Positions 5,320-6,892 of a stretch of DNA of 64,000 bases are shown one piece after another. Location of the stretch: contig JASGLT010000004.1 in assembly GCA_030156945.1 (NCBI GenBank), forward strand, positions 1 through 64,000, read 5' to 3'. The DNA is from Thermococcaceae archaeon. GTDB lineage: Archaea > Methanobacteriota_B > Thermococci > Thermococcales > Thermococcaceae. A model generated the notes under the pieces. It saw nothing but the letters and a program-made list of their open reading frames with translations, made no database searches and was not told where the DNA came from. Both the position numbers and the translations under genes were made by a program. The first letter of the stretch is position 1; each line of letters starts with the position of its first letter.

Positions 5320-5427
5320 TCTACCACCTGCCACTCATTGTTTGCAAGGGTTAATAAGCATGACCACCCGAATTTGAAGCCCCTAAATGGTTGTATCCAT
5401 TGAGTCGCACTCCGAAGGAGGCGCAAG

Positions 5428-5436
5428 ATTTAAAAG
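5428..5436 (+). promoter_or_regulatory. Box A before the transglutaminase-like gene
   Basis: ATTTAAAAG lies 26-34 bases before ATG 5462. Transcription would start near 5458, giving a nearly leaderless message, and would exclude the upstream ATG at 5387 as the real start. Confidence 0.5.
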
Positions 5437-5461
5437 AGTCTCCTGCGCTATTTTTGGGTGT

Positions 5462-6346
5462 ATGGGAGTGTATAGAGCCGCTGCAATCCCAATAATAGTG
5501 CTATTTTTCACGGCTGGACTGGTGGGCCACAATACGGGTAGGCTCAGGGAGCTGCCGGTAGTGGGCCCTCCATGGGATGACCTGATGAGTAGCACCATAG
5601 AGGGTGTTTACGCCCTTACAGGATTTTATCTCGGGACCGTTGGTGTTGTTGATAGTGCAGTCTCCGAGACGATGCCACTCAATGCACGGGATGAGTACAT
5701 TTACAGGGTTCAGAACAGCTCCTACGTCTATCCCTACTGGAGCTACACCGCTTTTCCCCGTGAGAAGCTTCCCGAGATCCTCAAATCTAAGGTGGTTCAG
5801 GATTTTCTCGATTCCGTGATAGAGGAAGCCGAATCCAGGCTCAGTGGGAAGAAAATTCCAAAAGACGAGTATGTGCTATACCTTCGTGCCACAGCCTACG
5901 AGGTTATGGTTGAGAGGCACAAATACTGTGCCGGCGGTCCGACTAAAGACCCCCGCTACGTCGTGACCCGCTGTGGGGACTGCGATGACTGGCACGTTGT
6001 GGCCTACGCGTTAATCTCAAAGATAAACGAGAGGTACGGTATAGACGCGAGGTACGACTGGTTCCCGCCCATAGGTCGGCTTTACAAGGGGGAATATTCG
6101 AGTGATATTGGTTCGGACTACATTGAGCTGAACGGACACTGCCCGATGCTTCTGGATTCAAAAAATGACTGCGTTGTGAAGATAAGGAGGTTCAAAAAGT
6201 ACTCTTCCCTAAGCGCATTCTACGCCCGTAACGGAGAGGGGGGTATAGTTTATCTTTTCGAGTTTCCAGAGCTCAGATACGTTTCCATTGACGACATCCT
6301 CAAAGAGGAAGGCAATCCCGCGGTAAAGTATTTAAACGGAGCCTGA
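5462..6346 (+). CDS. Membrane-anchored transglutaminase-like (papain-fold) protein
   Basis: From ATG 5462 the product has 294 residues with one N-terminal hydrophobic segment (about residues 5-22, AAAIPIIVLFFTAGLVG), so the rest is probably extracytoplasmic. The stretch CGDCDDWHVVAYALI places Cys174 at the head of a helix, as in transglutaminase-like cysteine proteases, and NGHCPMLLD (His226) could provide the catalytic histidine. Both are pattern matches only. The frame is open from 5387, but box A at 5428-5436 argues for the later start. The last 20 bases carry a possible promoter (AGTATTTAAAC near 6328-6337) for what follows. Substrate and role are unknown. Confidence 0.65.
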   Translation: MGVYRAAAIPIIVLFFTAGLVGHNTGRLRELPVVGPPWDDLMSSTIEGVYALTGFYLGTVGVVDSAVSETMPLNARDEYIYRVQNSSYVYPYWSYTAFPREKLPEILKSKVVQDFLDSVIEEAESRLSGKKIPKDEYVLYLRATAYEVMVERHKYCAGGPTKDPRYVVTRCGDCDDWHVVAYALISKINERYGIDARYDWFPPIGRLYKGEYSSDIGSDYIELNGHCPMLLDSKNDCVVKIRRFKKYSSLSAFYARNGEGGIVYLFEFPELRYVSIDDILKEEGNPAVKYLNGA

Positions 6347-6357
6347 CAATGAAAAAC

Positions 6358-6418
6358 GACCGATGAGGAGTGTCATCCCTCCTGACGTCGAGATGATGAC
6401 ATTATCCCCACCTGAGGT
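6358..6418 (+). ncRNA. Candidate box C/D guide sRNA
   Basis: In order: a C-like box CGATGAG (6361-6367), a 14-base guide, CTGA as D' (6382-6385), a seven-base spacer, a perfect C' box ATGATGA (6393-6399), a 12-base guide CATTATCCCCAC (6400-6411) and CTGA as D (6412-6415). Box spacing and length fit archaeal box C/D sRNAs that direct 2'-O-methylation. Box A at about 6328-6337 would start transcription near 6358, just at the C box. The D box runs straight into GAGGTG, the ribosome binding site of the gene at 6425. I could not identify rRNA or tRNA targets. Confidence 0.55.
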
Positions 6419-6424
6419 GTTCAT

Positions 6425-6892
6425 ATGATTGGACTGTTCAGGAAAAAGAAGGAGAAAACCGGACCTTTCATATATCTGAGTGAACCAACGATGCTGTACC
6501 ATACCCGGACAGAGAAGGCCATAGTCGAGATAATCAATGAGAAGCTCGGCTCAGAAAACATACTCGTGCCGTCAAAATACGGAATGAGGGACACGAGTCA
6601 CAGGATCGAGGAGGCGGAGTACTTCGTCGCCGTTGCCCCGCTCGGAAAATTTACATCCCTCGTGGGGCGGGAAGTGAAGATAGCCCTTGAAAGGGGATTA
6701 AAGGTGTTTACCCTGCTCCTTGCCAGGGAAGGAGATGAGCTCGTCTACCTGTGGGTAGAGGGAGTTCCAGAGGACGTTGAGTGGCTTTCTCCCGATGAGA
6801 CCATGGAGTTCACAAAACTCTTCGTGAACTCAGAGTTCATGGACATACTCAAACACGGGCTTCTAATTGGATCAAGAAAAAGGGAATGGTGA
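6425..6892 (+). CDS. Hypothetical protein with Rossmann-like pattern
   Basis: A 155-residue cytoplasmic protein. After a basic start (MIGLFRKKKEK) it alternates strands and helices: FIYLSEPTML, EKAIVEIINEKLG, NILVPSKYGMRD, IEEAEYFVAVAPLGKF, REVKIALERGLKVFTLLL. The layout recalls small nucleotide-binding folds such as nucleoside deoxyribosyltransferase-like or TIR-like proteins; this is inference from pattern and I cannot name catalytic residues with confidence. The binding site GAGGTG (6415-6420) sits directly after the D box of the candidate sRNA at 6358-6418, so expression of the two may be linked. It is convergent with nfnL. Confidence 0.7.
   Translation: MIGLFRKKKEKTGPFIYLSEPTMLYHTRTEKAIVEIINEKLGSENILVPSKYGMRDTSHRIEEAEYFVAVAPLGKFTSLVGREVKIALERGLKVFTLLLAREGDELVYLWVEGVPEDVEWLSPDETMEFTKLFVNSEFMDILKHGLLIGSRKREW

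Follow-up and report, generated by a model that had tools for sequence, protein, structure and literature searches.

Does a guide RNA whose last bases are also the ribosome-binding site of the next gene act as a translational switch, or do RNA and gene simply share bases? The question is raised by positions 6358-6424 of the window, the 64,000-nt stretch of a Thermococcaceae genome analysed here (contig JASGLT010000004.1), for which the original prediction had proposed a guide RNA and a switch in one. We find that this interval is the box C/D sRNA sR55. Its 3′ end doubles as the Shine-Dalgarno site of a gene for a 155-aa protein, probably a passively shared site at which two fates of one transcript would compete.

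Positions 6359-6417 score 74.5 bits (cut-off 35; E 2.6e-17) with the Rfam model sR55 (RF01307), a family of archaeal box C/D sRNAs that guide methylation. The C, D′, C′ and D boxes are all present in the sequence as predicted, with guides of about 12 nt, among them the predicted 12-base second guide. The predicted box A also sits at the right distance from the start of the RNA, and the predicted interval agrees in extent with the 67-nt RNA of T. kodakarensis described below. The D box had been said to run directly into GAGGTG; this contact is real, but the two elements have GA in common and therefore overlap by two bases rather than merely abut. sR55 bases extend in this way into the start region of a genuine downstream gene, whose ATG lies 9 nt past box D. 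The features of the locus are:

6331-6336, + strand: TATA box (box A) TTTAAA, in the 3′ end of the upstream ORF, about 24 bp before 6357, the equivalent of the T. kodakarensis start
6358-6424, + strand: sR55 box C/D guide RNA; Rfam core 6359-6417, mature extent expected from the 67-nt T. kodakarensis RNA (1476851-1476917)
6359-6361, + strand: 5′ strand of the terminal stem, ACC, pairing with GGT at 6416-6418; ACC/GCC and GGT are kept in nearly all of 70 loci
6363-6369, + strand: C box ATGAGGA, from sequence and Rfam alignment, one mismatch to RTGATGA
6370-6381, + strand: D′ guide, 10-11 nt complementary to 23S rRNA (near 2422, E. coli numbering) in three genera, with a compensatory change
6382-6385, + strand: D′ box CTGA, from sequence
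6393-6399, + strand: C′ box ATGATGA, from sequence
6400-6411, + strand: D guide CATTATCCCCAC, 12 nt, of which 9 nt are complementary to 23S rRNA (G2446, E. coli numbering), more weakly in genome G004
6412-6415, + strand: D box CTGA, from sequence
6414-6419, + strand: Shine-Dalgarno site GAGGTG, overlapping box D and terminal stem
6425-6892, + strand: gene for the 155-aa protein, start codon 9 nt after box D, with orthologues in nearly all genomes of the family

Box D and the 3′ strand of the terminal stem together form the 3′ end of sR55, CUGAGGUG. Aligned on the C box, 70 loci show an A+T-rich peak at -38 to -32. The upstream ORF that harbours the sR55 promoter in its 3′ end (5387-6346, 319 aa) has no match in Pfam or NCBIfam.

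We found no match to 16S or 23S rRNA in the window's own draft assembly (rated 99.7% complete), which is probably an assembly gap, and guide targets were therefore sought in relatives. The D′ and D guides pair with two 23S rRNA sites 22 nt apart, located by alignment to E. coli near 2422 for D′, where the exact number depends on local gaps, and at G2446 for D. The compensatory change concerns the D′ guide: CCCTG facing CAGGG of the rRNA in G004 becomes CCCAG facing CTGGG in G078. Pairing of the D guide with the second site holds in G021 and G078, but in G004 this guide has its best matches elsewhere, and the D target is less certain in that genome. Overall, the comparative evidence supports sR55 as a working 23S rRNA guide, with methylation itself as a predicted outcome.

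The predicted stable RNA of about 60 nt has a counterpart, and the proposed common start of sRNA and mRNA has support, in published work on T. kodakarensis. Table 1 of PMC9014305 lists sR52/Tko-sR54 of T. kodakarensis as a 67-nt RNA at 1476851-1476917 with 28,701 reads. Circular reads numbered 467, and 6 without RNA ligase, with junctions given to within 5 nt, and a transcription start was mapped at 1476850, one nt before the sRNA (PMC9014305). In G024, which we take to be the T. kodakarensis genome, the readable coordinates of this table fall on C/D sRNAs. sR52/Tko-sR54 is the sR55 homologue there and the downstream start codon follows at 1476918, so that the RNA as published stops one base short of the AUG and the whole ribosome-binding site lies inside the mature guide. 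Comparable tails, extending some 6-10 nt beyond box D, are present in other circular C/D sRNAs of the table irrespective of the sequence that comes next. The 3′ end of sR55 is therefore the usual mature boundary, which here takes in the whole ribosome-binding site. As a switch would require, the C and D boxes flank the Shine-Dalgarno site and the T. kodakarensis start lies upstream of both; transcription from this start would have to read through into the gene.

sR55 is conserved across the window's family. It was detected in 85 of 94 genomes, with each of the six genera represented, whereas 14 control genomes gave no hit, and outside the family only sub-threshold matches at the level of the controls were obtained. 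Most family genomes without a detected sR55 also lack the gene, but they add little because they are largely incomplete. We read 70 loci from 70 genomes (one of them, L005, printed from two bases further upstream). At 66 of these, box D is separated by 9-11 nt, including GAGGTG, from the start of one orthologous gene, whose product shares 45-100% identity with the window protein. The same layout was present in seven further genomes (G038, G039, G046, G049, G057, G081 and G090; in G049 the sRNA lies at the contig edge). The proposed fusion of sRNA and ribosome-binding site is thus deeply conserved, being found in 73 of the 77 genomes read. The upstream neighbour is not conserved: crude ORF calls at 64 loci sorted it into 31 clusters, and the biggest of these holds 13 loci. 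At 69 of 70 loci the bases after box D are GGTG, and nearly all loci have ACC/GCC ahead of the C box, which indicates that the same bases serve terminal stem and ribosome-binding site.

The 155-aa protein itself is conserved, with 22 invariant columns. It has no match in Pfam or NCBIfam, and a PDB sequence search gave a best E of 0.02. A fold search with its model returned a weak likeness to nucleoside 2′-deoxyribosyltransferases, below the firm threshold, and nothing evident connects the protein with RNA modification. Inspected by eye, the gene's distant homologues from other families of the class showed no obvious C/D leader.

The four loci that deviate from the common layout amount to a natural uncoupling of guide and gene. 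In G075, G079 and G084, sR55 and the gene for the 155-aa protein are kept apart by another ORF that looks flavodoxin-like by eye (L055, L059 and L062). The genes are preceded there by CTGAGGTG or TTGAGGTG and then ATG, and have retained TGAGGTG without the guide body. An Rfam scan of two of the three interrupted loci detected no sRNA beside the gene, only an intact sR55 further upstream. In G001 the gene is on another contig behind GGGGGTG, apart from sR55, and the unlinked sR55 reads CTGAGGCA, having lost the TG. An essential switch would be expected to keep its k-turn wherever the gene is kept, yet all four genomes have the gene without an adjacent sR55. Guide and gene can each exist alone, the gene needs the Shine-Dalgarno site and not the guide body, and control through the guide is not essential.

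sR55 is not the only guide RNA with this layout. In one complete relative, G021, read in stretches, a home-made finder gave 39 C/D candidates. GGTG and a start codon 8-13 nt on followed the D box in three of the 39, compared to 0.27% of other CTGA sites (p 2e-4). The three cases are sR55 and two sRNAs that precede a RidA-family gene and a Nudix gene, respectively; the latter two have counterparts in the window's genome:

G000:C1:134812-134846 (L107): Nudix-linked C/D sRNA, with relatives at L108-L114, L117 and L118
G000:C24:11117-11152 (L116): RidA-linked sRNA, which is sR45, with its G021 counterpart near 1120148

The Nudix pair (Pfam NUDIX) occurs in 10 of 13 genomes of the genus searched, and its box D runs into GAGGTG and ATG. 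Rfam left this sRNA unnamed at its cut-off in the two loci scanned; in T. kodakarensis it corresponds to sR61/Tko-sR67, and the published RNA ends two bases before the AUG. sR45 stands directly before the RidA-family gene with CTGAGGGGTG or CTGAGGTG ahead of the start. The RidA-linked sRNA of T. kodakarensis has its box D apart from the ribosome-binding site, which makes this case less stable. Another C/D sRNA, with CCTGAGGTG and then the ATG of a membrane-like ORF of about 60 aa, was noticed at G030:C1:1788206-1788237 (L119) and near 1371875 in G021.

How could one transcript serve both purposes? sR55 would be transcribed from its own promoter, with the transcript continuing into the gene for the 155-aa protein. 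If L7Ae, Nop5 and fibrillarin came first, trimming at the AUG, about 8-9 nt beyond box D, would yield a linear or circular guide, and the molecule would be lost as mRNA. If the ribosome came first, the same transcript would be translated. The k-turn that L7Ae binds in box C/D RNAs is made up of the box D GA and the stem next to it. A leader folded into a C/D RNP would withhold GAGGUG from the 30S subunit, and maturation of the guide would cut the ribosome-binding site off the mRNA. That L7Ae or the C/D RNP masks the site, as had been suggested, is structurally likely, since the mature RNA holds the whole site and L7Ae hides the site of its own mRNA. For the same reason, the whole ribosome-binding site lying within the mature guide, the two fates look mutually exclusive; we further infer read-through and that the gene is translated at a low level. 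Folded for minimum free energy, a method that cannot represent k-turns, the leader was unremarkable (z -1.65).

Could the arrangement have been selected as a switch? Free L7Ae or C/D core proteins would then bind the leader k-turn, hide GAGGTG and turn the gene off, and output would follow the supply of C/D RNP proteins. As a selected function this is plausible by analogy, since L7Ae represses its own mRNA via a k-turn beside the Shine-Dalgarno site (PMC5539422, PMC6298567), and it would fit both the near-constant retention of the fused layout and its recurrence before the Nudix gene. However, the uncoupled genomes, where the loci scanned with Rfam had no sRNA immediately ahead of the gene, lower it as the main reading; the protein shows no evident link with RNA modification, and base sharing by itself accounts for the fixed spacing. 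We therefore regard the switch as unlikely. We are equally doubtful that selection maintains the two fates so that competition between RNP assembly and ribosome sets the translation of the 155-aa and Nudix proteins, which, if true, would tie both genes to L7Ae and the supply of C/D RNP proteins. Still, the long persistence of the pair could reflect selection for regulation.

At the other extreme, guide and gene could be independent units that happen to abut, the gene starting within or after the sRNA with a short leader or none and GAGGTG being a mere terminal stem. The GG after box D belongs to this stem anyway, so that GAGG comes free, and leaderless transcripts make up about 14% of the mRNAs in T. 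kodakarensis (PMC4247193). Box D is only 9-11 nt from the start codon, however, and a second promoter would need to be inside the sRNA; a separate mRNA start there is formally allowed. Moreover, GGTG with a start codon is enriched after the sRNA D boxes of G021, the unlinked sR55 of G001 lacks the TG, and uncoupled genes retain GAGGTG. Together these observations make two independent units quite improbable. That the locus resembles a C/D sRNA by chance and gives rise to no real RNA could draw on the one mismatch in the C box but has hardly any probability in view of the Rfam E value, the family-wide conservation, the covariation of guide and rRNA and the published RNA; conservation and published reads rule it out. 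We favour the passively shared site over a dedicated switch because of the uncoupled genomes and a protein not known to be linked with RNA modification. Shared bases that make guide and gene hard to separate are the most likely reason for the persistence of the arrangement, and any dependence on L7Ae levels would be a by-product or a secondary use.

The end of a C/D guide is a ready-made ribosome-binding site, as CUGAGG contains GAGG, and sR55 offers a conserved case, testable in T. kodakarensis, in which guide-RNP assembly and translation may compete for one transcript. Even if only gene packing is involved, this would still explain why guide and gene stay together despite a changing upstream neighbour. 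The window copy is a member of the Rfam family, represented in T. kodakarensis by Tko-sR54/sR52, and agrees with it in sequence, boxes, guides and extent; the Rfam family covers the sRNA only, and the position of box D inside the ribosome-binding site of the next gene, family-wide, is added here. A position at the start of a protein gene is shared with the archaeal C/D genes that overlap the 5′ end of an ORF, about 7% of those studied, where box D often comes before the start codon (Tripp et al. 2017, reviewed in PMC7994747). According to the same review such 5′ overlaps lower downstream reporter expression, and snoRNAs in 5′-UTRs have been reported as well (PMC4247193). Compared to this class, the overlap described here is one of box D and Shine-Dalgarno site with fixed spacing, before one gene and in six genera. 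The autoregulatory k-turn in the 5′-UTR of l7ae (PMC5539422, PMC6298567) likewise puts a k-turn where the ribosome binds an archaeal leader, and bound protein would hide the site. However, l7ae leaders are simple k-turns on the l7ae mRNA without a guide RNA, and their regulation was shown experimentally, whereas any regulation at sR55 would be an inference. We did not find a prior description of conserved sharing between box D and the Shine-Dalgarno site of one gene in the open-access texts searched. In conclusion, the sRNA sR55 and the 5′ overlap of C/D genes as a class are already known; new here are the deep conservation with which box D shares bases with the Shine-Dalgarno site of one particular gene, and a second such pair before a Nudix gene.
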